From a virus, in IMG/VR virus record IMGVR_UViG_3300031951_016915, positions 1 to 27,395 of that record: 27,395 nt of DNA; one strand, 5' to 3'. The notes under the pieces are model-generated. The model was not told the origin of the DNA. It saw nothing but the letters and a program-made list of their open reading frames with translations, and ran no database searches. Made by a program: the position numbers and the translations under genes. Below are positions 5,230 through 23,642 of the stretch, piece after piece; positions within the stretch are counted from its first letter, which is position 1; every line of letters starts with the position of its first letter.

Positions 5230-5484
5230 ATGCAACCACAAGAACAATTAAAAGTAAACATTGATTTAAAAAACACACAACCAGTATTATCAGAAAGTGG
5301 TAATCATGTATTCACAGAAGGTTTTGTATTAAGAAAAGTATCTAAATTTATCACAGGTACAACTGAAGATGGAGTTATCCCAGTTCCATGTTTTTATGAT
5401 GTTAAAACAGGTGAAATATTACTTGAGACATTACCTAAAGATTTAAGAACTGAATATGAGGAGTACCAAAAGTCAAGTAAGTAA
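5230..5484 (+). CDS. Hypothetical protein inserted between genes 44 and 62
   Basis: An 84-residue protein of unknown role. It has an N-terminal polar segment, a central strand-rich part (HVFTEGFVLRKVSKFI), a cysteine at PVPCFYD, and an acidic/basic C-terminal helix (RTEYEEYQKSSK). Its last 29 bases overlap the start of the gp62-like gene in another frame, so translation of the two is probably coupled. Its place between the two clamp-loader subunits suggests a link to the replisome, but no domain is recognised. Confidence 0.7.
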   Translation: MQPQEQLKVNIDLKNTQPVLSESGNHVFTEGFVLRKVSKFITGTTEDGVIPVPCFYDVKTGEILLETLPKDLRTEYEEYQKSSK

Positions 5485-5896: not shown

Positions 5897-6147
5897 GAGA
5901 TAAAATTACAGAAGCAGTCATTGAAGATTTAAAATTAAGAAGTGAACGTGGTATTAAAAAATACAATACTACACTGTCAGAAAACAATAAAGATGATTTT
6001 ATGAATCATTTATATGAGGAGTTATTAGACGCTGCTCAGTATTGTAAAAAAGAAATGTCTATTATCCCAGCACTTCAAGAATTAATTTGTAGATTTCCCA
6101 ATGATCAAGAGTTAGGAGCTATAGTTAGAGAATTTTTTAAAAAATAA
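5893..6147 (+). CDS. Small MazG-like / phosphohydrolase-related protein
   Basis: An 84-residue helical protein whose start overlaps the previous stop (ATGA). The arrangement RSERGIKKYNTTL followed by a helix with EELLDAAQYCKKE (residues 43-55) is typical of small phage proteins related to MazG-type nucleoside triphosphate pyrophosphohydrolases, where an EExxD motif binds magnesium. Only one such helix is visible and the protein is short, so catalytic activity is not assured. If active it would trim noncanonical or excess nucleotides near the replication genes. The family call is moderate and the function is inferred. Confidence 0.6.
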   Translation: MRDKITEAVIEDLKLRSERGIKKYNTTLSENNKDDFMNHLYEELLDAAQYCKKEMSIIPALQELICRFPNDQELGAIVREFFKK

Positions 6148-6151
6148 TATT

Positions 6152-7096
6152 TTGGCTAAAGTACCTAAAATAGTAAAACAAATACAACAACAACAGTTAA
6201 CTGAGATAAACTATGCTTATCAACGTAGTATATCTTACAGTCAATTATCTATATATAATAGTTGTGCTCATAAATGGAAACTACAATATAGAGATGGAGT
6301 TGTTATTCCTTCATTTAGTATTCATACTATATTTGGAACTGCCCTACATGAAACTCTTCAACATTATTTAACTATTTTTTATGAAAAAAGTGGGACTGAG
6401 GCTGACAATTTAGATATTGAAGAATATTTTAAAACTAAATTTATTGAACAATACCAAATAGCTTTTAATAGTAATAATAAAACTCATTTTTCCTCATCTC
6501 AAGAATTAAGAGAATTTCATGATGATGGTTTAGAAATTATTAAATGGTTTAAAAAACACAAATCAGAATATTTTGGTAAACGAGGATGGTATTTAGTAGG
6601 ATGTGAAATCCCACTTGTAATCACCCCAGATAAACGTTATAAAAATGTGTTATACAAAGGATATTTGGATTTGGTACTATATCATGAACCTACTGAGACT
6701 ATTAAAATTATAGACATTAAAACATCAACTAGAGGATGGGGTGATAAAGAAAAGAAAGACGAACAAAAACAATATCAATTGATTCTATATAAAGAATTTT
6801 TAAGTAAACAATTTAATATAGATCCAGATAATATTGAGATAGAGTTTTTTATTGTTAAACGTAAAATATATACTGAATCTGAGTTTCCTCAAAAACGAGT
6901 TCAGTTATTTTCACCTCCATCAGGTAAAATTAAAACTAAAAAAGCAGTTAGTAGTGTTACTAGCTTTATTGAAGAAGTGTTTAATATAGATGGTACTTTG
7001 AAAGATAAAGAATATATAGCTAATCCTTCAAAATGGAATTGTTCTTATTGCCCATTTGCCTCTAAAAAAGAACTTTGTGATAAAAGTATACTTTAG
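6152..7096 (+). CDS. PD-(D/E)XK nuclease, RecB/Cas4-like with four conserved-pattern cysteines
   Basis: A 314-residue nuclease of the RecB/Cas4/AddB type. The sequence shows SYSQLSIYNSC (residues 28-38), a histidine in GTALHETL (His66), an acidic residue in YLDLV (Asp173), the core D-I-K (Asp188, Lys190) and a following Q-Y (207-208). Together these form the order H, D, D-x-K, Q-Y of this superfamily. One early cysteine (Cys38) and three late ones (Cys297, Cys300, Cys309) match the layout of the 4Fe-4S staple in Cas4 and AddB. The start is TTG at 6152, since no in-frame ATG lies before the conserved N-terminus. It probably processes DNA ends in replication or recombination; the exact activity is not known. 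Confidence 0.8.
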   Translation: MAKVPKIVKQIQQQQLTEINYAYQRSISYSQLSIYNSCAHKWKLQYRDGVVIPSFSIHTIFGTALHETLQHYLTIFYEKSGTEADNLDIEEYFKTKFIEQYQIAFNSNNKTHFSSSQELREFHDDGLEIIKWFKKHKSEYFGKRGWYLVGCEIPLVITPDKRYKNVLYKGYLDLVLYHEPTETIKIIDIKTSTRGWGDKEKKDEQKQYQLILYKEFLSKQFNIDPDNIEIEFFIVKRKIYTESEFPQKRVQLFSPPSGKIKTKKAVSSVTSFIEEVFNIDGTLKDKEYIANPSKWNCSYCPFASKKELCDKSIL

Positions 7097-7107
7097 TTGT
7101 TTTGTTA

Positions 7108-7117
7108 TATATTTATA
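7108..7117 (+). promoter_or_regulatory. Possible -7 promoter element (no matching upstream box)
   Basis: A perfect TATATTTATA, identical to the downstream element of the promoter family, sits 13 bases before the ATG at 7131. No TTTGGCT-like box is found 17 bases upstream, so this is either a weak promoter, a factor-dependent one, or chance in AT-rich DNA. Confidence 0.3.
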
Positions 7118-7130
7118 TACAAAATATGTT

Positions 7131-7313
7131 ATGGCAAAATCAGATAATCAAATATTAACATCTGTCAAAGTAGACAAGGATCTATTTGAACAGTTTAAAA
7201 TTCAATGTATTAAACACAAATTTTCATTACAAAAATTAACAGACAGAGTAATTGATTTGTATTTAAAAGATGAAACGTTTAGAAAATCAATTCATAATCA
7301 TCAAATAAAATAA
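7131..7313 (+). CDS. Small RHH-like protein, possible DNA-binding
   Basis: A 60-residue protein. Translation could formally be extended upstream to 7056, but that region overlaps the nuclease gene and codes for its shadow. The ATG at 7131 has the typical TTATGG context and follows a TATATTTATA element. The sequence ILTSVKVDKDLFEQFKIQC followed by a helix (KFSLQKLTDRVIDLYL) follows the strand-helix-helix pattern of ribbon-helix-helix proteins, as in 'xxVxVDxxLFxxFK..C'. It would act as a dimeric DNA-binding regulator. It sits at the junction between the replication genes and the glycan cluster. Confidence 0.65.
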   Translation: MAKSDNQILTSVKVDKDLFEQFKIQCIKHKFSLQKLTDRVIDLYLKDETFRKSIHNHQIK

Positions 7314-7318
7314 GTTAT

Positions 7319-8764
7319 ATGGAAGAAAAATTAGGTTATATTCCTCAAAAAGACAGAAAAAAGATACTCTTAATATGTGATGATATTAGAGTTCATTCTG
7401 GAGTAGCGACAGTAGCTAGAGAGTTAGTTGTAAATACAGCTCATCATTTTAATTGGGTAAATGTTGGAGGTGCTATCAACCACCCAGAAATAGGTAAACG
7501 ATTAGATTTATCTCAGGACACAAATGGCCATGCTGGTATAACAGACTCATCTGTTATAGTATATCCAGTTAATGGTTATGGAGATATAGGTTTGATTCGC
7601 CAATTATTACAAATTGAAAAACCAGATGCTATATTTTTAATCACTGATCCAAGATATTTTGTTTGGTTATTTAATATTGAAAATGAAATCAGAAAACAAA
7701 TTCCTATTATTTATTTAAATATATGGGATGATTTACCTGCACCTCATTATAATAAACCATACTATGAAGCATGTGATGCTTTATTAGGTATTTCAAAACA
7801 AACAGTTAATATCAATAAATTAGTTTTAGGTGATAAAGCTAAAAACAAAATTATTAAGTATGTACCTCATGGTTTAAATGAAAATATATTCAGACCATTA
7901 ACTGATCTTGATCCAGATTGGAAAGAATTTAATGTGTTTAGAAAAAATTTCTTTAAAGGTAAAGAATATGATTTTGTTTTGTTTTTTAATTCTAGGAATA
8001 TTAGACGTAAACAAATACCTGATACAATGATGGCGTTTAAATTATTTTTAGATAGTTTAACTCCAGAACAAGCCAAAAAATGTGCTTTAGTATTACATAC
8101 TGAAACAATAAGTGAACATGGAACTGATTTATTAGCTGTTAAGGAATTATTTTTTGATGGGTATGAGGATAATATTATTTTCTCAACTGACAAAAAAGAT
8201 CCTAAACATATGAATTTCTTATATAATTTGGCTGATGCTCAAATTTTATTAACTTCAAATGAAGGTTGGGGTTTAGCATTAACTGAAGCAATGTTAGCAG
8301 GATTACCAATAATTGCTAATGTAACTGGTGGTATGCAAGATCAAATGCGTTTTGAAAATGATAAAGGTAAATGGGTTGATTTTGACGCTAATGTTCCTTC
8401 AAACCATAGAGGCACTTATAAGAAACATGGCAAATGGGCGTTCCCAGTATTTCCAAGTAATATTTCAATTATGGGTTCACCTCCAACACCTTATATTTTT
8501 GATGATAGATGTCGTCCTGAAGATGCTACTGAACGTATCAAAGAATTATATGATATGTCTATCAGTGAGAGAGTAGAAAGAGGATTAGCGGGTAGAGAAT
8601 GGGCCACAAGTGATGAGGCTGGTCTTACAAGTGAAAAAATGGCTAATAGAGCTATTGAGGCAATAGATGAATTATTTGCTACTTGGAAACCAAGAGAAAA
8701 ATTTGAATTCATCAATACAAACGAAGTTAAAAAAAGAGTTTTAAACCATAAATTAATTTACTAA
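7319..8764 (+). CDS. Glycosyltransferase, GT4 family (GT-B fold)
   Basis: A 481-residue transferase that would move a sugar from a nucleotide donor to an acceptor in the cytoplasm. It begins with KILLICDDIRVHSGVA, the N-terminal Rossmann strand and glycine-containing loop. YVPHGLNENIF marks the domain boundary. The C-terminal donor-binding domain carries NEGWGLALTEAM with the EX7E pair at Glu315 and Glu323, followed by GLPIIANVTGG. No signal peptide or transmembrane helix is evident. It is the first gene of the sugar cluster, 5 bases after the small RHH-like gene and 2 bases before a second GT4. Donor and acceptor are unknown. Confidence 0.88.
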   Translation: MEEKLGYIPQKDRKKILLICDDIRVHSGVATVARELVVNTAHHFNWVNVGGAINHPEIGKRLDLSQDTNGHAGITDSSVIVYPVNGYGDIGLIRQLLQIEKPDAIFLITDPRYFVWLFNIENEIRKQIPIIYLNIWDDLPAPHYNKPYYEACDALLGISKQTVNINKLVLGDKAKNKIIKYVPHGLNENIFRPLTDLDPDWKEFNVFRKNFFKGKEYDFVLFFNSRNIRRKQIPDTMMAFKLFLDSLTPEQAKKCALVLHTETISEHGTDLLAVKELFFDGYEDNIIFSTDKKDPKHMNFLYNLADAQILLTSNEGWGLALTEAMLAGLPIIANVTGGMQDQMRFENDKGKWVDFDANVPSNHRGTYKKHGKWAFPVFPSNISIMGSPPTPYIFDDRCRPEDATERIKELYDMSISERVERGLAGREWATSDEAGLTSEKMANRAIEAIDELFATWKPREKFEFINTNEVKKRVLNHKLIY

Positions 8765-10709: not shown

Positions 10710-11342
10710 ATGAAAATAAGTTATGGTATCACAGTTTGTGATGAAAATGAAGAGTTATTTAACCTATTAAATTATCTACATGATAAGATAGATGAGGATG
10801 ATGAGGTTATTGTATTAAGGGATATGGAGAAAACTAATCATGATGTAACTAAAACTATAGTTCATTTTCATGAAAAGTTTAAGTATCAAATGAAATCAGC
10901 GGATACTAATTTAAATGGTGATTTTGCTACATTTAAGAATTATTTATTAGATTTAGCATCAGGTGATTACTTATTTCAGATTGATGCAGATGAGATACCA
11001 AATCAATTTCTAATTGAAAATATTAAACCAATACTTAAAGTCAACTCAGATATAGATTGTTTCTATATACCTCGAGTTAATAAGGTAAATGGTTTGACCC
11101 CACAACACGTTCAAAAATGGGGATGGAGAGTTGACGAACAAGAAAGAGTCAACTTTCCTGATCCCCAAATGAGACTTTTTAAATTAAATCAAGGTATTAA
11201 ATGGAAAAATAAAGTACATGAGGTATTAGATGGATATAAAACTATAACTACACTACCATATGACACTGAGGATTTTTGCTTAAACCATATTAAATCAATT
11301 CAAAAACAAGAAAAACAAAATAATTTTTATGAGCAACTATAA
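10710..11342 (+). CDS. Glycosyltransferase, GT2 family (GT-A fold)
   Basis: A 210-residue, short GT2-type transferase. It opens with ISYGITVCDENEELFNLL, the nucleotide-binding strand. The region FATFKNYLLDLASGDYLFQ precedes the metal-binding DAD at residues 92-94 (IDADEIP). A later segment, MRLFKLNQGIKWKNKVHE, is typical of GT2 enzymes of the SunS/WaaE-like group, which often transfer hexoses or heptoses. Its end overlaps the cupin gene by 14 bases. Substrate unknown. Confidence 0.82.
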   Translation: MKISYGITVCDENEELFNLLNYLHDKIDEDDEVIVLRDMEKTNHDVTKTIVHFHEKFKYQMKSADTNLNGDFATFKNYLLDLASGDYLFQIDADEIPNQFLIENIKPILKVNSDIDCFYIPRVNKVNGLTPQHVQKWGWRVDEQERVNFPDPQMRLFKLNQGIKWKNKVHEVLDGYKTITTLPYDTEDFCLNHIKSIQKQEKQNNFYEQL

Positions 11343-11676
11343 AGAAGAAAGACCTTGGGGTGAATTTGAAAATTTGATTGACTCAGATTTTTGTAAAGTA
11401 AAACAAATTATTATTAAACCAGGTCAAGCTCCTAGTTATCAATATCATTTTAAACGTAGTGAAATATATGTTGTTACTAAAGGTAAAGCTTTATTATGTT
11501 TAGATGATGTTGAATGTGAATTAAATGTTGGTGATGTAGCTAAAATACCTGTTAAAGCTAAACATCAAGTAACTAATATAGGAGATGAGGATTTAGTTTT
11601 TATCGAAGTACAATTAGGAGAATATTTTGGAGAAGATGACATAGTTCGAGTAAAAGATAATTATGGCAGAATATAA
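11329..11676 (+). CDS. Cupin, mannose-6-phosphate isomerase type II-like
   Basis: A 115-residue single-domain cupin. ERPWGEFENL at the start, an alternating strand core with likely metal ligands His40, Glu45 and His79, and the closing QLGEYFGEDDIVRVKDNYGR are hallmarks of the C-terminal isomerase domain of ManC/AlgA-type enzymes, which interconvert mannose-6-phosphate and fructose-6-phosphate. Here the domain stands alone. It overlaps both neighbours (14 bases each side) and is followed by a nucleotidyltransferase fusion, so isomerase and activation functions are encoded next to each other. The exact sugar phosphate is not certain. Confidence 0.82.
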   Translation: MSNYKEERPWGEFENLIDSDFCKVKQIIIKPGQAPSYQYHFKRSEIYVVTKGKALLCLDDVECELNVGDVAKIPVKAKHQVTNIGDEDLVFIEVQLGEYFGEDDIVRVKDNYGRI

Positions 11677-13198
11677 AGTATTAATAACTACAAGTGGTTT
11701 AGGTAGTAGATTAGGACAACTTACTGACTATACCAATAAATGTTTAATTAGAGTAGCGGATAAACCCGCTATTTCTTATATTATTGAATCATATCCTACA
11801 GATACAGAGTTTGTTATTACATTAGGACATTTTGGTTCTCATGTTAAACAATTTTTAGAATTAGCTTATCCGGATCATAAATTTACTTTTGTTGAAGTAG
11901 ACAAATATAAAGGAGAAGGTAGTAGTTTAGGATACTCAATTTTACAAACCAAACATCATCTCCAATGCCCTTTTATATTTCATGCTTCAGATACTATTTT
12001 AAAAGATCATACTTATGTATCACCAACATTTAATTATGTTATTGGATCCTTTAAAGAAGATCCAGCTCAATATAGAACATTAAGTATAACTAGTAATAAC
12101 ATATTATCTAAGATAAATGAAAAAGGAGATTTAATTCAAGGTTTATCATATGTTGGAATTACAGGTATAAAAGATTTTGAATTATTTTTTTATAATTTAG
12201 AAAAATTAGTTTATAATAACCATGAAGATACTTCAGATGTACATGCTATAAATAACATATTATCTGAAGTTGAATTTAAGTATATAAAAGTAAAAAATTG
12301 GTATGATGTAGGTAATACAACAGAATTAATTAAAACTAGAAGAGAATTTCATTCTAATATTGAAGTGTTAGATAAAAAAGATGAGTCAATATTTTTCTTT
12401 GATGATTTTGTAATTAAGTTTTTTTATGATACTGATATAAATAAAAATAGAGTTATTAGAGCTAATAATTTAAAAGGATTAGTTCCTGAAATTATAGATT
12501 CAACTGATAATTTTTATAAGTATAAGAAAGCTGAAGGTAAATTATTTTCTAAATCTGTTAAAAGAAATTCATTTAATTATTTTTTAGATTGGACTAAAAA
12601 TAATCTATGGGTGCCTAAAGAAAATAATAATTTTCAATCTCAATGTTTTGATTTTTATATAAATAAAACATTAAAACGTGTTAAACAATATTTAGCCTCT
12701 AACATAGAAACAAACTATATTAATGGAGAAAATATACCGTCAGTTTATACTATGCTTGATTCAATTGATAAGAATTGGTTAAGTAATGGAATACCAAGTC
12801 AATTTCATGGTGACTTTATTTTAGATAATATTATTGAAACTAAAGATGGATTTTGTTTAATTGATTGGAGACAGGACTTTGCTGGTGATTTAGAAATAGG
12901 AGACATATATTATGATTTAGCTAAATTGAACCATAATTTAACTGTTAATCATGATATTGTAAATAAAAATTTATTCAATTCAACCCCAGATAATTGTTAT
13001 ATATTAACAAATAGTACTTTAAATGAATGTAAAGAATCATTATATAAATTTATAGTTGATAATGGTTATGATTTAAAAAAAGTTCAAACCTTAACAGCTA
13101 TAATATGGTTAAATATGGCTCCATTACATGAGTATCCATTTAATAATTTTTTATTTAATTTTGGAAAATATAATTTACATAAAGCTTTAACATTATGA
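11663..13198 (+). CDS. Fused sugar/choline-type nucleotidyltransferase and APH-fold kinase
   Basis: A 511-residue two-domain enzyme. Residues 1-230 form an NTP-transferase domain: TTSGLGSRLGQLTDYTNKCL (residues 9-28) matches the glycine-rich nucleotide loop and lysine, and WYDVGNTTELI closes the domain. Residues 240-511 form an aminoglycoside phosphotransferase/choline-kinase fold with HGDFILDN (His382, Asp384, Asn389) and the metal-binding Asp401 in LIDWRQDF. It would phosphorylate a small alcohol or sugar and then activate it as an NDP derivative. Fusions of this kind are known for phosphocholine (LicC/LicA) activation, but the neighbouring isomerase, aldolase-like protein and HAD point to a carbohydrate. 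Substrate unknown. Confidence 0.8.
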   Translation: MAEYKVLITTSGLGSRLGQLTDYTNKCLIRVADKPAISYIIESYPTDTEFVITLGHFGSHVKQFLELAYPDHKFTFVEVDKYKGEGSSLGYSILQTKHHLQCPFIFHASDTILKDHTYVSPTFNYVIGSFKEDPAQYRTLSITSNNILSKINEKGDLIQGLSYVGITGIKDFELFFYNLEKLVYNNHEDTSDVHAINNILSEVEFKYIKVKNWYDVGNTTELIKTRREFHSNIEVLDKKDESIFFFDDFVIKFFYDTDINKNRVIRANNLKGLVPEIIDSTDNFYKYKKAEGKLFSKSVKRNSFNYFLDWTKNNLWVPKENNNFQSQCFDFYINKTLKRVKQYLASNIETNYINGENIPSVYTMLDSIDKNWLSNGIPSQFHGDFILDNIIETKDGFCLIDWRQDFAGDLEIGDIYYDLAKLNHNLTVNHDIVNKNLFNSTPDNCYILTNSTLNECKESLYKFIVDNGYDLKKVQTLTAIIWLNMAPLHEYPFNNFLFNFGKYNLHKALTL

Positions 13199-14172
13199 TA
13201 CCTAAATATTTTATTGGACCAATGTCCAAAAATGTAGTTGATACTATAATTGAATTTTGTGAAGAAAATAAAGTAACAATGGGACTTATCCCATCACGCA
13301 GACAAGTAGAAAGTACAGGTGGTTATGTTAATAACTGGACTACTTCTGATTTTTCTAAGTATGTTAATGAAAAAACAGATAGAATACTTTTACAACGAGA
13401 TCATGGTGGCCCAGGTCAAGGTATTTTAGATGATAATGGAATTGAATCATTAAAAGAAGATTGTAAATATTTGGATTATATTCATATTGATCCATGGAAA
13501 CAAAAAAATGGTGATCTAATGGAAGGATTAATAACTACAAGAGATTTAATTCAAATGTGTTATGATATAAATCCTAATACTAAATTTGAAATAGGTACAG
13601 AACAATCAATAAGACCATTTGAAGTAGATGAATTAGAGACAATGATTAAATTTCTTAAAAACTATCTACCTGAAAAAGTATTTAATAATATTAAATATTT
13701 AGTTATCCAATCAGGAACATCACTTAAAGGTAATACTCAAACTGGAGATTATAATAGTGATCGTTTAAAACAAATGGTTGAATTAGCTAAAAAATATGAT
13801 TTATTAACCAAAGAACATAATGGTGATTACATTCCTGTATCTGTTATTAAGGAAAAATTTAATTTAGGTTTAGATGCTATAAATATAGCTCCTGAGTTTG
13901 GTCTTATAGAAACTCAAACTTATCTTGATACTATTAAAGATAATGATATTTTAGAAAAATTTTTCTTAATATGTTATGAATCTAAAAAATGGGTTAAATG
14001 GGTTGATAAAGATTTTGATCCATTTACTAATAAAATAGAATTAATTAAAATTTGTGGTCATTATGTTTTATCAAATAATAATTTTTTAGGTTCAATCAAA
14101 GCCTATTACCCAGGAATTGATAAAATAATTTGTAAAAATATAAAAAATAAGTTATATGAATTATATAAATAG
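13195..14172 (+). CDS. TIM-barrel aldolase-like protein (GatZ/KbaZ-related)
   Basis: A 325-residue protein resembling the GatZ/KbaZ group linked to tagatose-bisphosphate aldolases. Visible signatures are MGLIPSRRQVESTGGYVNNW (residues 29-48), QRDHGGPGQG (67-76) and YIHIDPWK (95-102), followed by KFEIGTEQSIRPF, all placed on the C-terminal ends of predicted barrel strands. In metabolic operons GatZ/KbaZ helps a class II aldolase, but no such aldolase is in the window, so this protein may work alone on a different aldol or lyase reaction. It overlaps the kinase fusion by 4 bases (ATGA) and the methyltransferase by 17, indicating a shared pathway. Family moderately sure, reaction unknown. Confidence 0.65.
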   Translation: MIPKYFIGPMSKNVVDTIIEFCEENKVTMGLIPSRRQVESTGGYVNNWTTSDFSKYVNEKTDRILLQRDHGGPGQGILDDNGIESLKEDCKYLDYIHIDPWKQKNGDLMEGLITTRDLIQMCYDINPNTKFEIGTEQSIRPFEVDELETMIKFLKNYLPEKVFNNIKYLVIQSGTSLKGNTQTGDYNSDRLKQMVELAKKYDLLTKEHNGDYIPVSVIKEKFNLGLDAINIAPEFGLIETQTYLDTIKDNDILEKFFLICYESKKWVKWVDKDFDPFTNKIELIKICGHYVLSNNNFLGSIKAYYPGIDKIICKNIKNKLYELYK

Positions 14173-15286
14173 AGATAAAAGTGTTATTACTAAAAAACAA
14201 AACTTAGAGCATTTATACACATTTAAAGATTTTCCTGTTTTTTTTGGCTGCACCTCAGAACCTAAAAGTAAAGACATCACTTTAGATATGGTTTGGGAAA
14301 TTGATCCAGAAACAGGTATTATTCAATTATCTAAATTAGTTCCATTAGATATTTTATATATGGAACAGCATGTTGATGCAACAGGACCAACTTGGGATAA
14401 GTATAATCATGCTTTTGCTAATTATATTTTAGAAAAAAGAGTTGGTAATGTTATTAAAATTGGTGGTGGTAGTGGTAAAATAGCTAAAATTGTTTTAGAT
14501 AAATTAAATAGTATTACTTACACAGTTATTGAACCTAACCCATTATTTGAAGAAACAAATAATTTAAAAATTATACCTAAATTTTTCTCAAAGGAATTTA
14601 AAAATGATTTTGATGAAAATAATACAATTGTATTCTCTCAAGTATATGAACATGTGTATGACCCAGAAGAATTTTTAAGTGAAATTAGTGAGTTTTTGCC
14701 AGTTGGAGGAAGATTAGTATTTGCTTACCCTAATTTAGAATATTGGTTTTCAAATAAGTTTACTAATGCTATTAATTTTGAACACTCAATGTTAATGACT
14801 GATTATTTTGTAGATTATTTTTTAACTAAAACTGGATTTAAAATTATAGAAAAAATCAATTATGAAAACCATAGTCATTTTTACACTGTTGAAAAACTTG
14901 AAACTCCTAATAATGTTTTGTTAGAAAATAAATATGAACATTATAAAACTATGTTTAATGATTATATTAATTATCATAAAGAATTAGTTAATAAAATAAA
15001 TAATCAAATTGATAAAACTAATTCACCTATATTTTTATTTGGCGGTCATATTTTTTCTCAGTATTTAATTATGTTTGGATTAAAAACAGATAAAATTATT
15101 CATATATTAGATAATAGTCCTCTTAAACATGATAAACGTTTGTATGGAACTGATTTAATAGTTAAATCACCTAAAATACTTTCAGACTATGATAACCCAG
15201 TAGTTATACTTAAAGCAGGATTATATAATAATGAGATTCAAAATGATATATTAATTAATATAAACGCAACAACTAAATTTATATAA
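14156..15286 (+). CDS. SAM-dependent C-methyltransferase-like protein
   Basis: A 376-residue protein with the layout of sugar C-methyltransferases. It has an N-terminal segment with a single cysteine where zinc-binding family members have four, a class I SAM-binding core with IGGGSG (residues 102-107) and the post-loop acid in VIEPNP, then QVYEHVYDPEEFL. A C-terminal Rossmann-like domain contains FLFGGHIFSQYLIMFG and HILDNSPLKHDKRLYG. This C-terminal domain is the signature of the TylCIII/NDP-hexose C-methyltransferase type. Loss of the zinc cysteines is unusual. It overlaps the aldolase-like gene and abuts the HAD gene (TAATG). It probably methylates a ketosugar made by the neighbours. Confidence 0.75.
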   Translation: MNYINRDKSVITKKQNLEHLYTFKDFPVFFGCTSEPKSKDITLDMVWEIDPETGIIQLSKLVPLDILYMEQHVDATGPTWDKYNHAFANYILEKRVGNVIKIGGGSGKIAKIVLDKLNSITYTVIEPNPLFEETNNLKIIPKFFSKEFKNDFDENNTIVFSQVYEHVYDPEEFLSEISEFLPVGGRLVFAYPNLEYWFSNKFTNAINFEHSMLMTDYFVDYFLTKTGFKIIEKINYENHSHFYTVEKLETPNNVLLENKYEHYKTMFNDYINYHKELVNKINNQIDKTNSPIFLFGGHIFSQYLIMFGLKTDKIIHILDNSPLKHDKRLYGTDLIVKSPKILSDYDNPVVILKAGLYNNEIQNDILININATTKFI

Positions 15287-15645
15287 TGGATACAAGACCT
15301 AAAACAATTATTTGTGATATTGATGGTACATTAGTATACCATCGTGATCCTCATACTGTGAGTAAATCTAATCATAAAATGGAGTTACTAATAGGCACTA
15401 TTGAAAAACTATTAGAATGGGAACGTAAAGGTTATAATATTATTCTATTAACTGGTAGAAAAGAATCAATGCGTGAAGTGACTGAAAATCAATTAAGAGA
15501 AATAGGTATATTTTATGATCAATTAATAATGGGTGTAGGTGGTGGAGCTCGTTATTTAATCAATGATTCTAAACCAGATGGTGAACAGTCAGCGTTTGCC
15601 ATTAATATTGAAAGAAACTTAGGTATAGGAGGTATTAACATATGA
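15286..15645 (+). CDS. HAD-superfamily phosphatase
   Basis: A 119-residue HAD hydrolase, close to the minimal size for the fold with no cap domain. Motif I is CDIDGT (Asp11 and Asp13), motif II is LLTGR with Thr56, and motif IV is NDSKPD with Asp94. The order and the ending SAFAINIERNLGI match small HAD proteins of capsule and polysaccharide gene clusters that remove phosphate from sugar phosphates. It starts on the last base of the methyltransferase stop and ends overlapping the next gene by 4 bases. It probably supplies the dephosphorylation step in the same sugar pathway. Confidence 0.85.
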   Translation: MDTRPKTIICDIDGTLVYHRDPHTVSKSNHKMELLIGTIEKLLEWERKGYNIILLTGRKESMREVTENQLREIGIFYDQLIMGVGGGARYLINDSKPDGEQSAFAINIERNLGIGGINI

Positions 15646-16859
15646 TTTTACTAGTTAATACTTTTATGACAAATGAGTCTCCTACTAATGGAGCTTGGGA
15701 GGCAGCTGGAATAAAACAAGATAGAGGTAATCTAAAAAAAGATTATAAAATTGATATTTTAAAATACAATTTATCTAGTTTTTCAACAATGTATCCTTGG
15801 AAACGAGTTATAATTAAAGTTCAACTTGACACAGACTATGACTCAGACAAAATTAGATTAGATTTAGAAAATTATGTTAAAGAAGAATTTAAAAATTTTG
15901 ATTTGCATTTTTCTTTTAAAAGAAATTTAATTCAACAAGATTGGATAGACACATATTCATTAGTTAATGATGATGATTTTATTTATTGTTTCTGTGGACA
16001 TGACCATATATTTATGGATTATTCTCAAGAATATATAGAACAAATTATATCCTCAGTTAAACAAGAATCTAATCCTTATACTACAATATTAGTTAGTCAT
16101 TTTCCTGACCATATCAGAACAGCTAAAGCTGGTCCTCCAAGACATAGTGATTTAGGACCTGAGTTTTATCATACTAATTATAAATTAGAAGAAAATTATA
16201 CTTCACATGATGGATATAATTATGATAGTATAACTATTATATCTAAAGTATTATATGAAGATTGGTTTTTAAAAGGAAAATGGGACGATATATACCATAG
16301 ATACCCACCTGGGCTTTTCAAATCAGGTCATATAGAATTACCTCGTATTGATGGAGTTGGAAAAACAGATTTAAATTTCATCAGAAATAAATTATTAAAT
16401 ATTCCTACTCCAAAGCAAAAAATTATTACACCATATAGAGAATTATCTAGACATTATGATGGATATTTCTTTCATGGTATAACAAATGATCAAGTTCCAT
16501 CAATTGAAATACCTGAGGGATTTTTTGAAAATAATATTAAAATTAGATATGGATATGATGATAGGAAAGAGGGATGGGTGAATATAAATCCCAAATCAGA
16601 ATACTATTACGCATCAAATAAACTAGGAGCTGACTATAAATTAACCTTAAAAGAAATTCCTTTATTCTGGAAACATAGAATATCCGAAATAGATATTAAT
16701 CCAAATATTGATGAGATAGAAATGATACAATATAGATTAAAAACTGTATTAGAAATGGTTTATACTAGTCCTAATTTTAATTCATATATAGATAAAGAAT
16801 TAGAAGAAAAAATATTAAATGAATATCTTAAAATATATCCTGAGGTTCAATTAGCATGA
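15642..16859 (+). CDS. Unrecognised protein of the sugar cluster, possible glycosyltransferase
   Basis: A 405-residue soluble protein that I cannot place in a family with confidence. It opens MILLVNTFMTNESPTNGAW. It has an acid-rich stretch NDDDFIYCFCGHDHIFMDY (about residues 108-126) that looks like a GT-A style nucleotide/metal loop, and many aromatic residues, as in carbohydrate enzymes. There is no signal peptide or membrane segment. Overlaps of 4 bases on both sides place it inside the operon. A transferase role is inferred from context and the acidic loop only. Confidence 0.6.
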   Translation: MILLVNTFMTNESPTNGAWEAAGIKQDRGNLKKDYKIDILKYNLSSFSTMYPWKRVIIKVQLDTDYDSDKIRLDLENYVKEEFKNFDLHFSFKRNLIQQDWIDTYSLVNDDDFIYCFCGHDHIFMDYSQEYIEQIISSVKQESNPYTTILVSHFPDHIRTAKAGPPRHSDLGPEFYHTNYKLEENYTSHDGYNYDSITIISKVLYEDWFLKGKWDDIYHRYPPGLFKSGHIELPRIDGVGKTDLNFIRNKLLNIPTPKQKIITPYRELSRHYDGYFFHGITNDQVPSIEIPEGFFENNIKIRYGYDDRKEGWVNINPKSEYYYASNKLGADYKLTLKEIPLFWKHRISEIDINPNIDEIEMIQYRLKTVLEMVYTSPNFNSYIDKELEEKILNEYLKIYPEVQLA

Positions 16860-17719
16860 AAATACTTTATATAACAAATCATAATAGTATAGCTCAATCT
16901 AGTGGGGGTTATATTAATGATTACATGAATGATGTTTTATTTCATGGTTTAAATGAATTAGATTTTATTGAAGTAACAGACAGTACTCCTATAATTCATT
17001 TATACAACAATTATAAAAATCAAATACCACAACAAAATCTTTGGGGTAAGGGATTTACAACAACTTTTTTAATCAATCAAGATAAAAAAGATAGATCTAA
17101 TATTGAAGAAAAAATTAAAGAAAAATATTATGATTTGATTATATATGGAGCTGTAAATAGATGTTTAGATTATTATGATATTGTCTCTAAAGCATACCCT
17201 AATAATAAAATATTTTTAATTGATGGAGATGACTCAACTGACATTCATCCATTAAGTGAGAAACATCCTTATTTTAAACGAGAATTAACCTCGGATAAAT
17301 TTATACCTATCCATTTTGCTATCCCAGAAATAAAAATAACTCAAGTAGCTTTAGATAAAACTCAAGAATACGGCTCTATAATTCCAGGTCAAGGTGGTTA
17401 TAAGTTTGATGATGAGCGTTCTTATTATATAGATTATAATAAATCATATTATGGTGTCACTATGAAAAAAGCAGGGTGGGATTGTATGAGACATTATGAA
17501 ATATTAGCTAATCACTGTATTCCATACTTTATAGATTTAGAGTCATGTCCTAAACAAACATTAACTAATTTACCTAAAGAATTATTAATTGAAGCTAGAG
17601 AATTATCTTCTAACTTTGATAATCAAAAATATGATGTTATATTGAATGAATTATTTGATTATACTAGAAAAAATTTAACAACTAAAAAATTAGCAGAATA
17701 CATTTTAAGTTATGTTTAA
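16856..17719 (+). CDS. Glycosyltransferase-like protein
   Basis: A 287-residue protein. The N-terminus MKILYITNHNSIAQSSGGYI resembles the first strand and loop of GT-B transferases. The middle has DLIIYGAVNRCLDYY. The segment MKKAGWDCMRHYEILANHCI (about residues 202-221) followed by PYFIDLESCP resembles the donor-site region of GT1/CgeB-like and exostosin-like transferases, where a conserved acidic residue precedes 'EILA..C.P.F'. It is shorter than a usual GT-B enzyme (about 350-400), so one domain may be reduced. It is translationally coupled to both neighbours. Confidence 0.6.
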   Translation: MKILYITNHNSIAQSSGGYINDYMNDVLFHGLNELDFIEVTDSTPIIHLYNNYKNQIPQQNLWGKGFTTTFLINQDKKDRSNIEEKIKEKYYDLIIYGAVNRCLDYYDIVSKAYPNNKIFLIDGDDSTDIHPLSEKHPYFKRELTSDKFIPIHFAIPEIKITQVALDKTQEYGSIIPGQGGYKFDDERSYYIDYNKSYYGVTMKKAGWDCMRHYEILANHCIPYFIDLESCPKQTLTNLPKELLIEARELSSNFDNQKYDVILNELFDYTRKNLTTKKLAEYILSYV

Positions 17720-18377
17720 AAACAATATATATACTCCTGAAGCACAAAGAAATCTAAACTCTGAGGTTCAAAGATTTCATATTATAAATTATTTACTTGA
17801 AAAAAATAATTTTTTAAATTATCTTGAAATAGGTGTTTTCCAAGGAGAAAATATTAGATTAATAAAAGCTCTTCATAAAGATGGAGTTGACCCAGGTGCT
17901 GAAGGATATATAATCCCAGAGGTTAACTATCCTATGACCTCAGATGAATTTTTTGAATTGATAAAAGATCATGAAGATATTAAATATGATGTTATATTTA
18001 TTGATGGATTACATCATGCCGATCAGGTAGATAAAGATATAACTAATGCTATGAAACATATTGTTGAAGGTGGTTTTATTGTATTACATGATTGCAATCC
18101 TATTAGTTATGAAGCACAAATTATACCTAGAGAAACAGTAGTGTGGAATGGTGATGTTTGGAAATCATTTGTTAAATTTAGGTTTAATCATCCTAATTTC
18201 AAAACATGTGTTATTGATACTGATTTTGGGGTGGGTGTGATTCAAAAGTGTTCTGATTATAGAGGACCATCTATACCTGAATTAGAAGAAAAAATTCAAG
18301 AATGGGAATACTTTGACACTAATAGAAAAGATTTATTAAATTTAATTACAGTAGAAGAATTTAAACAATTATTTTAA
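17712..18377 (+). CDS. Class I SAM-dependent methyltransferase (Methyltransf_24-like)
   Basis: A 221-residue methyltransferase. The SAM-binding loop is YLEIGVFQGENI (residues 37-48). VIFIDGLHHADQVDKDI (94-110) is the post-motif typical of this small-molecule and sugar methyltransferase group, and GGFIVLHDCNP follows as the next core strand. Families with this pattern often methylate sugars or macrocin-type hydroxyls. It starts 8 bases inside the previous gene and ends 2 bases before the epimerase gene, so its substrate is probably a sugar of this cluster. Confidence 0.85.
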   Translation: MFKNNIYTPEAQRNLNSEVQRFHIINYLLEKNNFLNYLEIGVFQGENIRLIKALHKDGVDPGAEGYIIPEVNYPMTSDEFFELIKDHEDIKYDVIFIDGLHHADQVDKDITNAMKHIVEGGFIVLHDCNPISYEAQIIPRETVVWNGDVWKSFVKFRFNHPNFKTCVIDTDFGVGVIQKCSDYRGPSIPELEEKIQEWEYFDTNRKDLLNLITVEEFKQLF

Positions 18378-18379
18378 GT

Positions 18380-19381
18380 ATGAATATATTAATAACAGGA
18401 GTAGCGGGATTATTAGGCAGTCGATTAGCTGATTGGATTATTGAAAACCACCCAGAACATAAAGTAATAGGAATTGATGATTTAAGTGGTGGTTATGCTG
18501 AAAATATTAATTCTAAGGTTATATTTCATAATATAAATTTAGCCAAAGAAACAACTCAGTTAGATCAAATATTTAATTATTATAAACCAGACTATGTTTT
18601 TCATTTTGCCGCATATGCTGCTGAAGGTTTATCTCCATTTATTAGAACATATAATTACGATAATAATTTAAGAGCCACCGCCTCTATAATAAATGAATGT
18701 ATCCGTTATAATATCAAACGTTTAGTGTTTACTTCAACATTAGCAGTTTATGGTCATGGAGAAGGAGGTTTATTTGATGAAAAACAAATACCTAAACCAA
18801 TTGATCCATATGGTGTAGCTAAATTTGCTTGTGAGATGGATATTCAAATAGCAGGTGAACAACATGGTTTAGATTGGTGTATTATACGACCTCATAATGT
18901 TTATGGTGTTAAACAAAACATTTGGGACAAATATCGTAATGTGTTAGGTATATGGATGTTCCAATATATGAATGGTGAACCAATGACTATTTTTGGTGAC
19001 GGTAATCAAACCAGAGCCTTTAGTTATATAGATGATAATTTAGAACCACTTTTCAAATCAGCTATATTACCTGAGGCTTCAAAACAAATTATTAATTTAG
19101 GTGGTATTGAAGAAATTTCAATTAATGATGCTTGTTCTACATTACAAGAAGTAATTGGTGGTGGAGATATTGTTTATAAAGAAGCTAGACATGAAGTTAA
19201 ACATTCAATACCAACATGGCAAAAGTCAGTTGATATCTTAGGATATGAATATAAAACTAATTTAAAAACAGGATTAACTGAAATGTGGAATTGGGCTCAA
19301 CAACAACCTAAGCGTGAAAGATTTGTTTGGCCATCATATGAATTAGATAAAGGTATTTATAGTTTTTGGAAGACAAAATAA
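18380..19381 (+). CDS. NAD-dependent nucleotide-sugar epimerase/dehydratase (extended SDR)
   Basis: A 333-residue extended short-chain dehydrogenase/reductase acting on an NDP-sugar. The NAD-binding GVAGLLG lies at residues 7-13, followed by an acidic residue in IDDLSGGY. The active site has the Ser/Thr segment TSTLAVYG and Tyr144-x3-Lys148 in PYGVAKF. RPHNVYGVKQN and the C-terminal FGDGNQTRAFSYIDD are the NDP-sugar binding signature of the GalE/WbpP type. The product could be a C4 epimer or a dehydrated sugar; the exact reaction cannot be fixed. The stop shares one base with the next start (TAATG). Confidence 0.87.
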   Translation: MNILITGVAGLLGSRLADWIIENHPEHKVIGIDDLSGGYAENINSKVIFHNINLAKETTQLDQIFNYYKPDYVFHFAAYAAEGLSPFIRTYNYDNNLRATASIINECIRYNIKRLVFTSTLAVYGHGEGGLFDEKQIPKPIDPYGVAKFACEMDIQIAGEQHGLDWCIIRPHNVYGVKQNIWDKYRNVLGIWMFQYMNGEPMTIFGDGNQTRAFSYIDDNLEPLFKSAILPEASKQIINLGGIEEISINDACSTLQEVIGGGDIVYKEARHEVKHSIPTWQKSVDILGYEYKTNLKTGLTEMWNWAQQQPKRERFVWPSYELDKGIYSFWKTK

Positions 19382-20181
19382 TGGTTTTAAAAGATTTAGC
19401 TAATAAAGGTTGTTATACTGCTAATGGTTTTATTGAGTCATTAGATAGTTTTAATTTATTAGAAGGATATATACTTTATAATTTACCTGTTCTAAAACAA
19501 TTTAAACATATTGTTATAGTTAATACTTATAAAGAATATAGTGAAGAATTAGTTAAAATAAATACTCAACTTTGGAATGAATATTTTTCTAATGTTGATT
19601 TCATTGATTTGAAAGAAAATAGAGGTCATTCATTTGGTATAGCAGATAGTGAAAATGCTTTAATTGAACACTGTCAATCTTTAGGTTATGAGTGGATATG
19701 TAAATCATCTAATGATGTTTTATTACAAGAAAAAATATTAAATAAAGAAATAAAAGAAGCTGATTTATATTATTTTAATGGTATATCATATGAAGATTTA
19801 TACTTAAATAATTTTGATTATAAAAAGATATATGATAATCACTTCTATCCTCAAACTAATTTTTACTTTATTAGAGTAGATAAAATTGATTATTTATATG
19901 ATAAAAAATATATTGATGAAACCTATCAATATAGACTAAATATACCTAATTACAGTAATAAAATATGGGAATACATTCCTGAATGGAGTTGTGAGAATTT
20001 TTTAAAGAAATGTGTTTCTAGAAATAGGCTATCTAAAGAATATTTATTAGATTTAGATACACATAATAAATTATGTGAGACAATTAAAATGTGTAAAATT
20101 GGAGACCCATCACATAAAAATATTATGTATGAAGGAGTTTGCCATTTTCAATACCCAGAACAAAATATAATTGAAATATGA
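19381..20181 (+). CDS. Glycosyltransferase-like protein
   Basis: A 266-residue protein. An upstream TTG at 19366 would add five residues, but the ATG at 19381 forms the TAATG overlap used elsewhere in this operon and is preferred. The stretch IVIVNTYKEY, then KENRGHSFGIADSENALIEH and YEWICKSSNDVLL resembles a GT2-type nucleotide-binding core in which 'N.G' and 'D' loops bind the donor, with SSNDV in place of DxD. Its end overlaps the RGP-like gene by 4 bases. The assignment to glycosyltransferases is likely but the substrate is unknown. Confidence 0.62.
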   Translation: MVLKDLANKGCYTANGFIESLDSFNLLEGYILYNLPVLKQFKHIVIVNTYKEYSEELVKINTQLWNEYFSNVDFIDLKENRGHSFGIADSENALIEHCQSLGYEWICKSSNDVLLQEKILNKEIKEADLYYFNGISYEDLYLNNFDYKKIYDNHFYPQTNFYFIRVDKIDYLYDKKYIDETYQYRLNIPNYSNKIWEYIPEWSCENFLKKCVSRNRLSKEYLLDLDTHNKLCETIKMCKIGDPSHKNIMYEGVCHFQYPEQNIIEI

Positions 20182-21122
20182 AAAAAGTTATAGCAACAAC
20201 CACTATTAATCCACCAACAGAAGCATTTTGGAAATACGCTTCAATGCATGATTGGAGTATAATTGTAGCTGGTGATTTAAAAACTCCTCATGAGTTGTAT
20301 CAAAATATTCCTAATGTTACTTATCTTTCTCCAGAATATCAAGAAAAAGAGTATCCAATATTAAGTGAATTAATTGGATGGAGATGTATTCAACGAAGAA
20401 ATTTCGCTATTTTAGAAGCGTATAAACAAGGAGCAGATATTATAGCAATTATTGATGATGATAATGTTCCATATGATGGTTGGGGAGAAGATTTAGTGGT
20501 AGATAAATTAACAGAAGTTAATATGTTTGACACTAAAGATATTGTTTTTGATCCTATTGGTTCTTTAAAAGAACATAAAGAACTATGGCATCGTGGTTTT
20601 CCATTAGAAAAAGTACCTTTTAGAGATTATAGTGAAAAATGGACAACTTCTATTATCCCTAAAATACAAGCTATATTTTGGGATGGAGAACCAGATGTTG
20701 ATGCAGTTTGTAGAATGATATATAATCCATATTGTAAATTTGATCCTTCACAATTTCCAATCTCAAGTACTAAACCATCTCCATTTAATTCTCAAAATAC
20801 TATTATAAGTAGAAGTGTTGTTAAGGATTATTTTTTATTTCCACATATTGGAAGAATGGATGATATCTGGGCAGCGTATTATGTTCAATCTAAAGGACAC
20901 AAAGTAGTTTTTACAAAACCAGGAGTATTAAGTGATAGAAGTTTAGGTACAGCAGGTAGATATTCTATGATTGAAGATATGAAAAGAGAATATATTGGTA
21001 TGGAAAATAATACTAATTTACTTAATGATTTATCTACCAACTCAGAATTAATTGAAAAATACTTACCTAAAAAATCTTGGGAAGCATTTATTGAATGGAA
21101 AAATATAATTGAAAAAATATGA
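20178..21122 (+). CDS. GT75/RGP-like glycosyltransferase or mutase (STELLO/DUF288-like)
   Basis: A 314-residue protein with features of the reversibly glycosylated polypeptide and DUF288 group. These include an N-terminal MKKVIATTTINPPTEAFWKY, the metal/nucleotide motif IIDDDNVP (Asp93-95), the segment PFNSQNTIISR after a hydrophobic PISSTKPSP, and GRMDDIWAAYYVQ. Relatives include UDP-arabinopyranose mutases and transferases acting on UDP-sugars. It is the only member of this type in the window and overlaps an epimerase gene, so the pair could make and use the same NDP-sugar. The family call is from memory of the pattern. Confidence 0.68.
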   Translation: MKKVIATTTINPPTEAFWKYASMHDWSIIVAGDLKTPHELYQNIPNVTYLSPEYQEKEYPILSELIGWRCIQRRNFAILEAYKQGADIIAIIDDDNVPYDGWGEDLVVDKLTEVNMFDTKDIVFDPIGSLKEHKELWHRGFPLEKVPFRDYSEKWTTSIIPKIQAIFWDGEPDVDAVCRMIYNPYCKFDPSQFPISSTKPSPFNSQNTIISRSVVKDYFLFPHIGRMDDIWAAYYVQSKGHKVVFTKPGVLSDRSLGTAGRYSMIEDMKREYIGMENNTNLLNDLSTNSELIEKYLPKKSWEAFIEWKNIIEKI

Positions 21123-21997
21123 ATATATTAATTACAGGTCATAAAGGTTTTGTTGGCCAGGAGTATGTTAAATACTTTACAAAACAAGGACATAAAGTAA
21201 CTGGTATTGATATTAAAGAAGGTAATGATTGTAGAGATTTTTTTAAGAGCTGTAATGAGCAATTTGATTTAATAGTGCATTTAGCTGCTATTGTTGGTGG
21301 TAGAGATACTATCGAAAATGATCCTTTAGCTGTAGCTACTGATTTATCTATTGACGCTGAATTTTTTAATTGGGCTGTTAGGACAAAACAAAATAAAGTA
21401 ATTTATTTTAGTTCATCAGCTGCTTATCCTATTCATCTTCAAACTAAAGGAAGTACTCATAAACTAATAGAGTCAGACATTAATTTAATGGATATAAATT
21501 CACCAGATTTTACTTATGGATGGGCTAAATTATCAGGAGAATATCTAGCTCATTTTGCTCGCCAATATGGTCTTAAAGTATATGTGTTTAGACCTTTTAG
21601 TGGTTATGGTGAAACTCAAGATTTAGATTATCCATTTCCTTCTTTTATTAAAAGAGTATTAGACCAAGTGGATGAATTTGAAATTTGGGGTGATGGAACT
21701 CAAGTTAGAGATTTTATTCATATTGAAGATATAGTTGAAGCCACTATGAAAGCAGTTGAACTTGATATTGAAGGTCCTATTAATTTAGGAAGTGGAATAG
21801 CAACTTCATTTAATGATTTAGCTGAACAGATATTTGAAATAGTAGGGTGGAAGCCTAAAAATGGTATCAAGCTTAGAACAGATAAACCTGTTGGAGTAAT
21901 GTATAGATGTTCAGATAGTTCTAAAATGTTAAGTTTTTATACTCCAAAAATTAGTCTAAAAGAAGGAATTGAGAGAGCTTTAAATCAAAATAAATAA
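21119..21997 (+). CDS. NAD-dependent nucleotide-sugar epimerase/reductase (extended SDR)
   Basis: A 292-residue extended SDR. The NAD-binding GHKGFVG is at residues 7-13, with the substrate-side AAIVGGRDT. The catalytic pair is Tyr133 and Lys137 (FTYGWAKLSGE), preceded by FSSSAAYP. VFRPFSGYGETQD and the WGDGTQVRDFIHIEDI signature bind the NDP-sugar. The AAIVGG motif and overall size recall GDP-fucose synthase and related 3,5-epimerase/4-reductase enzymes, but it could equally be a 4-epimerase. It is distinct from the SDR at 18380, so two different NDP-sugar conversions are encoded. It overlaps the FkbM gene by one base (TAATG). Confidence 0.86.
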   Translation: MNILITGHKGFVGQEYVKYFTKQGHKVTGIDIKEGNDCRDFFKSCNEQFDLIVHLAAIVGGRDTIENDPLAVATDLSIDAEFFNWAVRTKQNKVIYFSSSAAYPIHLQTKGSTHKLIESDINLMDINSPDFTYGWAKLSGEYLAHFARQYGLKVYVFRPFSGYGETQDLDYPFPSFIKRVLDQVDEFEIWGDGTQVRDFIHIEDIVEATMKAVELDIEGPINLGSGIATSFNDLAEQIFEIVGWKPKNGIKLRTDKPVGVMYRCSDSSKMLSFYTPKISLKEGIERALNQNK

Positions 21998-22770
21998 TGA
22001 AAATAGCTTTTGAAATTATTGAAACACCATATGGTCATTTTTTTATAAATAGCTATGATTTAATAGGTTACTCATTAGGTAAATTAAAAGTATGGGAAAG
22101 TCATTTACTTGATTTTTACAGTAGAGTCTTAACTAAAAATGATGTTTGTGTGGATGCTGGAGCAAATTTAGGATTTCACTCAGTACAATTTGGTAGATTT
22201 AGTAAATTAGTTTACTCTTTTGAACCTCAAAAAATGGTGTTTAATAATCTTTGTGCTAATATATTATGTAATGATTTAAATGAAAACATTATTCCTTTTA
22301 GATTAGGTCTTGGAGATAAAAAAGAAATTAAACAATTATGGCCTGTTGAAAATGAAACTTGGTATGGTCATGATATAATTAATTGGGGTGGAAGAGGAAT
22401 TGATCAAACTGATTCTATTGAATATAAAGAAGAAGATCAAATTGAAGTAGTTAATTTAGATTCATTAAATATCTCAGAATGTAGTTTATATAAATTAGAT
22501 ATTCAAGGATATGAATATTTTGCTTTACTTGGATCTAAAAACTTAATAGAAAAATGTAAACCTATTATTTTATTAGAAAATTTTCCTGGTAATGAAAATG
22601 ATTCAAATGCTTTAGAATTTTTAAAAGATTTAGGATATGAGAATTATAGATATTATTCTAACAATAATGAAGATTGTATTTTAATTCACCCAAATAGCAA
22701 CAAATATAATATTAGTATTGAAACCATTAATTTACTTAAAAATAAATACGATTTAAAACAAGATTTTTAA
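21997..22770 (+). CDS. FkbM-family methyltransferase
   Basis: A 257-residue SAM-dependent methyltransferase of the FkbM type, which usually O-methylates sugars or polyketide sugars. The SAM loop is VDAGANLGFHSVQF (residues 52-65). The post-I acid is Glu76 in FEPQKM, and YKLDIQGYEYFALLG is the FkbM signature (KxDxxGxE) placed near residue 165, followed by PIILLENFPG. It starts on the last base of the previous stop. As the last methyltransferase of the cluster it probably finishes a sugar substituent. Confidence 0.88.
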   Translation: MKIAFEIIETPYGHFFINSYDLIGYSLGKLKVWESHLLDFYSRVLTKNDVCVDAGANLGFHSVQFGRFSKLVYSFEPQKMVFNNLCANILCNDLNENIIPFRLGLGDKKEIKQLWPVENETWYGHDIINWGGRGIDQTDSIEYKEEDQIEVVNLDSLNISECSLYKLDIQGYEYFALLGSKNLIEKCKPIILLENFPGNENDSNALEFLKDLGYENYRYYSNNNEDCILIHPNSNKYNISIETINLLKNKYDLKQDF

Positions 22771-22772
22771 TT

Positions 22773-23642
22773 ATGAAAATATCAGCAGTTATAGTCTCCA
22801 GAAATGATAATTATGGAGGTCATTTAAATGAAAGAGCAACTTATTGTTTAAACTCAGCAATTGATACTTATGATGAAGTATTTTATATTGACTGGAACTC
22901 AGATGAAGACAGTTTACTTGATAATATTAGAAATAATATTACTTTTAAAGGTAATTTAAGACATATTGTCATAACTCCTGAGATAGCTTCTATTCTTACT
23001 AATCATGATCCAAATGCTCAAAAATGTTGTGAAGTATTAGCTCGTAATATAGGTTTAAGAAGAGCAACAGGTGATTATTTAATTTCAACTAATATTGATA
23101 TAATTCACCCTAAACGTGATGAATTAGAAAAAATTATTAATTCATTAGATAAAAATACATTTTACACCATTAGTAGAAGACCATTAGATTGGGATACTAT
23201 TAAACAATATCATAATGGTGAGATTATTTTTAATAAATGGAAAGAACTTAGAGACTATTTAATAATTAATTCTGAAGAACGTTATTTTGAAGAATCAACT
23301 GTTAATGGAGATAATTTTAGTATAATTAATTGTTGTGGAGATTTTCAAATAGCTCCTAAACATATATGGCATGAAATTAGAGGAATGGAAGAAAGTTTGA
23401 TATACTCATTATACGCTGACACTAATGTACAGAAAAAATCTGTTATGCATGGTTTTGGATTAAAAGCAATTTACAACCCAGCTTTATTTCATATTAATCA
23501 TGGTCGTGGTGGTGGAGGATTTTTAGATGGTGTTAATAAAGTAACTAATGATCCTATGCGAGCTATCATATTACAAGGTAAAACAGAAAATGATGATACT
23601 TGGGGATTCTCAAATATAGAAATTGAATATGAAATACTTTAA
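22773..23642 (+). CDS. GT2-like glycosyltransferase
   Basis: A 289-residue protein, the last gene of the glycan cluster. It opens with MKISAVIVSRNDNYGG, the GT2 nucleotide-binding strand and loop. The segment CCEVLARNIGLRRATGDYLI followed by STNIDIIHP is the usual 'R N.G...a.Gdyll..D.D' region, with NID replacing DxD. Later NCCGDFQIAPKHIWHEIRGM resembles the acceptor/aspartate region of GT2 enzymes, and a glycine-rich NHGRGGGGFLDG loop is near residue 245. The next gene begins after a fresh promoter, so the operon probably ends here. Confidence 0.78.
   Translation: MKISAVIVSRNDNYGGHLNERATYCLNSAIDTYDEVFYIDWNSDEDSLLDNIRNNITFKGNLRHIVITPEIASILTNHDPNAQKCCEVLARNIGLRRATGDYLISTNIDIIHPKRDELEKIINSLDKNTFYTISRRPLDWDTIKQYHNGEIIFNKWKELRDYLIINSEERYFEESTVNGDNFSIINCCGDFQIAPKHIWHEIRGMEESLIYSLYADTNVQKKSVMHGFGLKAIYNPALFHINHGRGGGGFLDGVNKVTNDPMRAIILQGKTENDDTWGFSNIEIEYEIL

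Follow-up and report, generated by a model that had tools for sequence, protein, structure and literature searches.

A set of four genes, encoding a cupin (CUP), a nucleotidyltransferase-kinase fusion (NTK), a metal-dependent TIM barrel of the GatZ/KbaZ superfamily (KBZ) and a small HAD phosphatase (HAD), was found on a T4-like marine phage contig; dozens of other, divergent viral contigs carry it too, as do bacterial genomes. We propose, with a probability of about 55%, that this module is a nucleotide-sugar pathway that takes a central ketose phosphate as its starting point. The analysis supports isomerase, kinase, nucleotidyltransferase and phosphatase functions, in line with the original prediction of an activated-sugar module. 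That prediction came from a reader who knew of no named pathway with exactly this set, and a search of the open-access literature gave no description of it, and nothing relevant on a sedoheptulose-7-phosphate (S7P) 4-epimerase.

The gene block and its surroundings

The window, as the whole stretch of DNA analysed is called here, is a 27.4-kb virus record, and the phage genome is a fragment. T4-type replication genes on the contig encode a DNA polymerase, clamp-loader subunits and a recombination exonuclease; a full-length GroEL chaperonin is encoded at 2404-4074, beside the clamp-loader genes. A run of closely packed glycan genes, most of them overlapping, extends from 10710 to 23642 (~13 kb), and the block of five consecutive genes lies near its start (Table 1). 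The five ORFs are real, are placed as predicted, all on the plus strand, and overlap successively by 14, 4, 17 and 1 bases. Since the block also overlaps the genes on both of its sides, it belongs to a longer operon. Scans for promoters and terminators gave no signal above the chance level. The other genes of the cassette differ from phage to phage. Another record, L139 (IMGVR_UViG_3300032093_001900), matches the window with 100% identity across NTK residues 1-301 and thus represents this virus, or one very close to it, assembled elsewhere.

Table 1. Genes of the glycan cassette in the window.
Gene	Position	Strand	Remarks
Upstream family-2 glycosyltransferase	10710..11342	+	PF00535 5.4e-5; 14-base overlap with CUP
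CUP, cupin	11329..11676	+	115 aa
NTK, nucleotidyltransferase-kinase fusion	11663..13198	+	511 aa
KBZ, GatZ/KbaZ-superfamily metal-dependent TIM barrel	13195..14172	+	325 aa
CMT, SAM methyltransferase	14156..15286	+	376 aa
HAD, small HAD-IIIA-like phosphatase, PNKP-like	15286..15645	+	119 aa
g405, uncharacterised 405-aa protein	15642..16859	+	4-base overlap with HAD
Cassette remainder	16856..23642	+	g287, Methyltransf_24, two NAD-dependent epimerase/dehydratase proteins, two unknowns, FkbM methyltransferase, family-2 glycosyltransferase

A conserved core in viral loci

Viral loci (n = 48) were picked by KBZ similarity, some of the contigs being near-duplicates; together with the window they hold 45 distinct KBZ sequences. 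Every one of the 48 loci has NTK at most 3 kb from KBZ, and the cupin and HAD each lie within 3.5 kb in 46, contigs cut at their ends (L001, L015) being among those that miss one or the other. All four genes are on one strand. Sixteen of the 48 loci have CMT no more than 4 kb from KBZ, and 23 have g405 within 5 kb; in sister phages a TylF-type or Methyltransf_24 methyltransferase occupies the optional CMT slot. The cupin and NTK are fused as one protein of ~638 aa in 16 loci, and all 16 fusions are accompanied by a gene resembling shikimate dehydrogenase (AroE-like; e.g. L011 7388-8002). This pattern argues for a core of cupin, NTK, KBZ and HAD to which interchangeable modifying enzymes are added, and the AroE-like and methyltransferase variants indicate that the product varies. 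Of the five genes originally grouped as the set, four therefore stand as the core and the methyltransferase falls outside it, and the limits first drawn have to be widened at the 3' end, where the conserved set extends to g405.

Two of the viral loci (L011 13274-16657 and L034 12111-14169) also carry an RmlB-like dehydratase with a split mini-transketolase (about 205 + 157 aa), to which L011 adds a DegT/ColD-like PLP enzyme; these RmlB-transketolase genes are a candidate branched deoxy sugar pathway. The split transketolases were considered as a source of S7P and rejected for the company they keep, as the RmlB-like dehydratase beside them makes it more likely that they serve another, branched deoxy sugar. 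No GmhA-like protein was found in seven large phage records, a search that is uninformative as a negative. Matches labelled as Listeria 'phage' are unverified contigs that correspond to Listeria PTS operons.

Fold and active site of KBZ

Proteins of the GatZ/KbaZ family are annotated as 'non-catalytic aldolase subunits'. A Pfam search with KBZ matched no family, PF08013 included, and the NCBIfam KbaZ model matched weakly (0.0012, 18 bits against a cut-off of 707); PF08013 does match relatives ~30% identical to KBZ. The predicted model of KBZ (pLDDT 91) is closest to the GatZ-type structure 2FIQ (Z 28.3, rmsd 2.9 over 319 aligned residues, 15% identity to GatZ), followed by 3TXV (Z 26.7) and by tagatose 4-epimerases and UxaE (Z 23-24), with class II aldolases below the epimerases at Z about 21. 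GatZ and KbaZ are D-fructose-6-P/D-tagatose-6-P 4-epimerases, for which the conversion of fructose-6-P to tagatose-6-P was demonstrated, and the Zn site of GatZ was modelled with His88, Glu171 and His257, together with Asp87 (PMC11907403). Residues D87, H88, E171 and H257 of GatZ align to D69, H70, E136 and H208 of KBZ, and the catalytic Asp and the three metal ligands are kept in almost all aligned KBZ relatives. On the substrate side, C20, E44 and K279 of GatZ are replaced by G8, I32 and N230, and the basic residues R35, R36, R68 and K206 are new with respect to GatZ. In the tree, a long branch with support of 100/100 separates KBZ from GatZ/KbaZ.

The GatZ fold, the retained Asp and metal site and the demonstrated activity of GatZ/KbaZ make C4 epimerisation the best-supported reaction, and on the predicted structure KBZ is proposed to be a ketose-phosphate 4-epimerase. 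The long branch and the altered pocket residues mean that the substrate, and even the reaction, may differ from those of GatZ, so fructose-6-P need not be the substrate. KBZ had originally been read as an aldolase lacking its partner. This idea was dropped as the leading reading on the fold search and the literature, as GatZ and KbaZ themselves catalyse C4 epimerisation (PMC11907403) and it is to these epimerases that the modelled KBZ comes closest.

The remaining enzymes

CUP matches PF01050 MannoseP_isomer (1.7e-25, 89.9 bits against a cut-off of 23.6) and contains the conserved motifs QYH...E...H and DD..R..D.Y.R, with the metal-binding Q.H...E...H present. By its sequence it is a cupin of the type-II phosphomannose-isomerase kind, and we propose it as a ketose-P/aldose-P isomerase. 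The N-terminus of NTK (~residues 1-235) is an NTP_transferase domain (Arch_glmU model 1.7e-14) and the C-terminus (~residues 240-511) has an APH kinase fold (PF01636 3.1e-5) with the motif FHGDFILDNI...LIDWRQ; relatives keep the motifs FHGD...DWRQ and G.G.RL...NK. In the predicted model (pLDDT 88.8) the NTase domain matches LicC/GalU/RmlA at Z ~25, with PntC scoring equally, and it ties among UDP-glucose, dTDP-glucose, phosphocholine and GlcNAc-1-P enzymes. Owing to these ties the nucleotide cannot be called, an assignment from the fold was rejected, and the cytidylyltransferase type suggested at the outset could not be upheld. A MurU profile gave no specific match on NTK (23 bits; cut-off 250). 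NTK is proposed to combine an anomeric kinase with an NDP-sugar pyrophosphorylase.

HAD carries DIDGTL, and the pattern DIDGTL...GR...ND.K is conserved across 43 sequences; the protein in the window is a HAD-IIIA relative at 27.7 bits (cut-off 44.6), is not GmhB, and is proposed to be a sugar-phosphate phosphatase. CMT has a Methyltransf_23 (PF13489) domain and a PF08484 C-terminal domain at 23.4 bits against a cut-off of 23.5; the zinc domain (PF08421) gave no match in the window and a weak one in the relative in L078. By these domain matches CMT is of the PF13489/PF08484 C-methyltransferase type, with an apparently degenerate zinc-binding N-terminus, and is an optional accessory; it also occurs near NTK/KBZ in L070, L072, L074, L078, L081, L169 and L170. 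No convincing Pfam or PHROG family was found for g405, which is probably a dedicated glycosyltransferase and is present in the bacterial-bin loci L065, L072 and L074. A pattern search for g405 in viral contigs found nothing, probably because the patterns were built from one sequence.

Counterparts in SAR11 and other bacteria

When bacterial genomes were scanned, modules turned up in several lineages, among them a Pelagibacteraceae genome, a Flavobacteriaceae contig and Gribaldobacteria. A few of these loci may be viral contigs that were binned with bacteria, for example L065, whose neighbours are of phage type. SAR11 are among the commonest bacteria of the ocean. Among 197 genomes of the SAR11 order, full-length NTK was found in seven and KBZ in six, all six within the seven (hypergeometric 9e-11, kinship not corrected). 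All seven NTK-bearing genomes have a HAD in the same locus. Bacterial loci swap the phage-type HAD for other types, KdsC-like in six of the seven SAR11 genomes and GmhB-like in one (L081), and the phage protein, PNKP-like, is a third; the presence of three HAD subfamilies in one slot speaks for dephosphorylation as a necessary part of the pathway. In the seventh NTK-bearing genome (L172) KBZ was undetectable, and a GmhA-like isomerase (TIGR00441 3e-18), seen among the bacterial versions in this locus only, lies with a split transketolase downstream of cupin-HAD-NTK. This isomerase in a genome that lacks KBZ places NTK downstream of ketose-phosphate isomerisation, and the varied phosphatases, together with a ketose-phosphate isomerase substituting for KBZ, point to sugar-phosphate intermediates. 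In SAR11 locus L173 (9424-10212) a shikimate-dehydrogenase-like gene follows NTK.

Relatives of KBZ were also found in other settings. In marine Bacteroidota a lone KBZ, about 53-58% identical, occupies a conserved site adjoining the fumarate reductase gene frdB in 12 of 14 contigs (L052-L055, L058-L063, L067, L069), where the remaining module genes are absent, so the role of KBZ is not confined to the module. Fructose-type PTS operons (L133, a Klebsiella plasmid, 1-8289; L130; L085, L095, L098, L116, L125, L126, L128) contain a KBZ homologue, annotated 'class II D-tagatose-bisphosphate aldolase, non-catalytic subunit', recurrently with a transketolase and sometimes with a transaldolase. This homologue belongs to the same superfamily branch as KBZ and has the SR.Q, RDHGGP and KEHNGDY motifs in common with it, but its operons are catabolic and it forms a separate clade (99/100). 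The operons constitute an uncharacterised catabolic pathway whose substrate is perhaps a heptulose or pentulose; a neighbouring transketolase or transaldolase is expected if they deliver a ketose of the pentose phosphate pathway such as S7P. Actinobacterial relatives occur with a cupin and a DegT aminotransferase (L112, L075) or with a HAD-IA phosphatase (L073, L075-L077, L082, L084), possibly in an amino-sugar natural-product pathway.

Proposed pathway and alternatives

The analysis establishes which genes are present, how they co-occur, the predicted fold and the conservation of catalytic residues; from this we infer every enzymatic step, the nucleotide and the acceptor. KBZ would invert C4 of a ketose phosphate by metal-assisted retro-aldol/aldol chemistry, and the cupin would convert the ketose to an aldose. 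HAD would then remove the terminal phosphate and the APH-type kinase domain would phosphorylate the anomeric carbon, the order of these two steps being presumed, after which the NTase domain would form the NDP-sugar. This sugar, optionally methylated, would serve to decorate a glycan through glycosyltransferases encoded in the operon, g405 perhaps among them. By sugar stereochemistry, a start from fructose-6-P would yield an NDP-sugar of the galactose or talose type with no NDP-sugar epimerase, and a start from S7P, through its 4-epimer mannoheptulose-7-P, would yield NDP-D-glycero-D-galacto- or -talo-heptose. KBZ has a pocket unlike that of GatZ, and the GmhA-like, GmhB-like and transketolase neighbours make S7P at least as likely a start as fructose-6-P. 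We lean tentatively towards a heptose, at somewhat under even odds, regard a hexose as a possible but lesser candidate, and think another substrate unlikely. The narrower claim that KBZ is a new S7P 4-epimerase founding an NDP-heptose pathway of marine phages and SAR11 is speculative, and we would expect it to fail more often than not. If it is true, the PTS operons would run the same type of enzyme in reverse, from a heptulose to the pentose phosphate pathway. The branched or short-chain sugar suggested originally found no support: there is no sign that the chain is short, and the C-methyltransferase is an optional gene whose place other methyltransferases take in sister phages. The better fit is a heptose or hexose epimerised at C4.

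KBZ might instead be a class-II-type aldolase that joins two fragments into a new ketose phosphate, possibly branched or of unusual length, which the cupin, HAD and NTK would then activate. The fold family is common to class II aldolases, the catalytic Asp-His is retained, KBZ has profile matches to the sulfofructose-phosphate aldolase SqiA (1.6e-6), its pocket residues are unlike those of the GatZ epimerases, and CMT is often close by. However, the nearest folds are those of epimerases, the metal ligands are His/Glu/His as in GatZ and not His/His/His as in aldolases, and the core has no obligate enzyme for a second fragment, so that we consider an aldolase improbable.

NTK could alternatively be LicA/LicC-like and make a CDP-alcohol of the choline or polyol type for a phosphodiester substituent, with KBZ, the cupin and HAD preparing the alcohol. 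LicC tops the profile matches of the NTase domain (3.8e-11) and is near the top by fold (Z 25.7), and choline kinases fall in the family of the kinase domain; but LicC shares its rank with GalU, RmlA and archaeal sugar-1-P NTases, the cupin is a phosphomannose-isomerase-type protein, and no LicD-type transferase or reductase could be recognised among the four core genes. Such a role thus seems less probable still than an aldolase. That the genes are an ordinary, loose glycan set with no shared pathway would agree with their place in a longer cassette that also encodes glycosyltransferases and further sugar enzymes, the rest of which varies between phages. The near-perfect co-occurrence in phages, SAR11 and other bacteria, the gene fusion and the common strand in phages make this very improbable.

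Relation to known systems and significance

The preferred reading, a nucleotide-sugar pathway from a ketose phosphate, resembles known systems in part. KBZ is like GatZ/KbaZ (PF08013) in predicted fold, catalytic Asp and His/Glu/His metal site, and unlike them in the profile match, in the positions of E44, K279 and C20 and in the extra Arg/Lys residues; GatZ/KbaZ belong to a catabolic operon with GatY/KbaY, whereas KBZ lies in a nucleotide-sugar module. Pairs of a sugar 1-kinase and an NDP-sugar pyrophosphorylase, such as AmgK-MurU, use an APH-type kinase and an NTP_transferase enzyme to make an NDP-sugar; NTK shares both, but is a single fused protein with the NTase first. The GDP-heptose pathway runs through GmhA-HddA-GmhB-HddC (PMC10680097). 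The module is similar in the logic of its steps, with an isomerase, an anomeric kinase, a terminal phosphatase and a nucleotidyltransferase, the latter also of the NTP_transferase fold (~Z 25), and some bacterial versions contain GmhB-like or GmhA-like proteins. The enzyme families are mostly different, however: in place of the SIS isomerase GmhA there is a cupin in the window and in most versions, in place of a separate HddA there is an APH-type kinase fused to the NTase, and a GatZ-like enzyme is added.

A divergent branch of GatZ/KbaZ is thereby placed in what would be a compact nucleotide-sugar pathway of marine phages and some SAR11. If the proposed pathway is correct, it provides a second route to 4-epimeric sugars, with epimerisation before instead of after nucleotide activation, and may define a new substrate for the GatZ/KbaZ enzyme superfamily. 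By analogy with pelagimyophages (PMC7029224), the module may change the host surface, and a correct pathway would name the genes by which these viruses may alter the surface of the host or of the virion.
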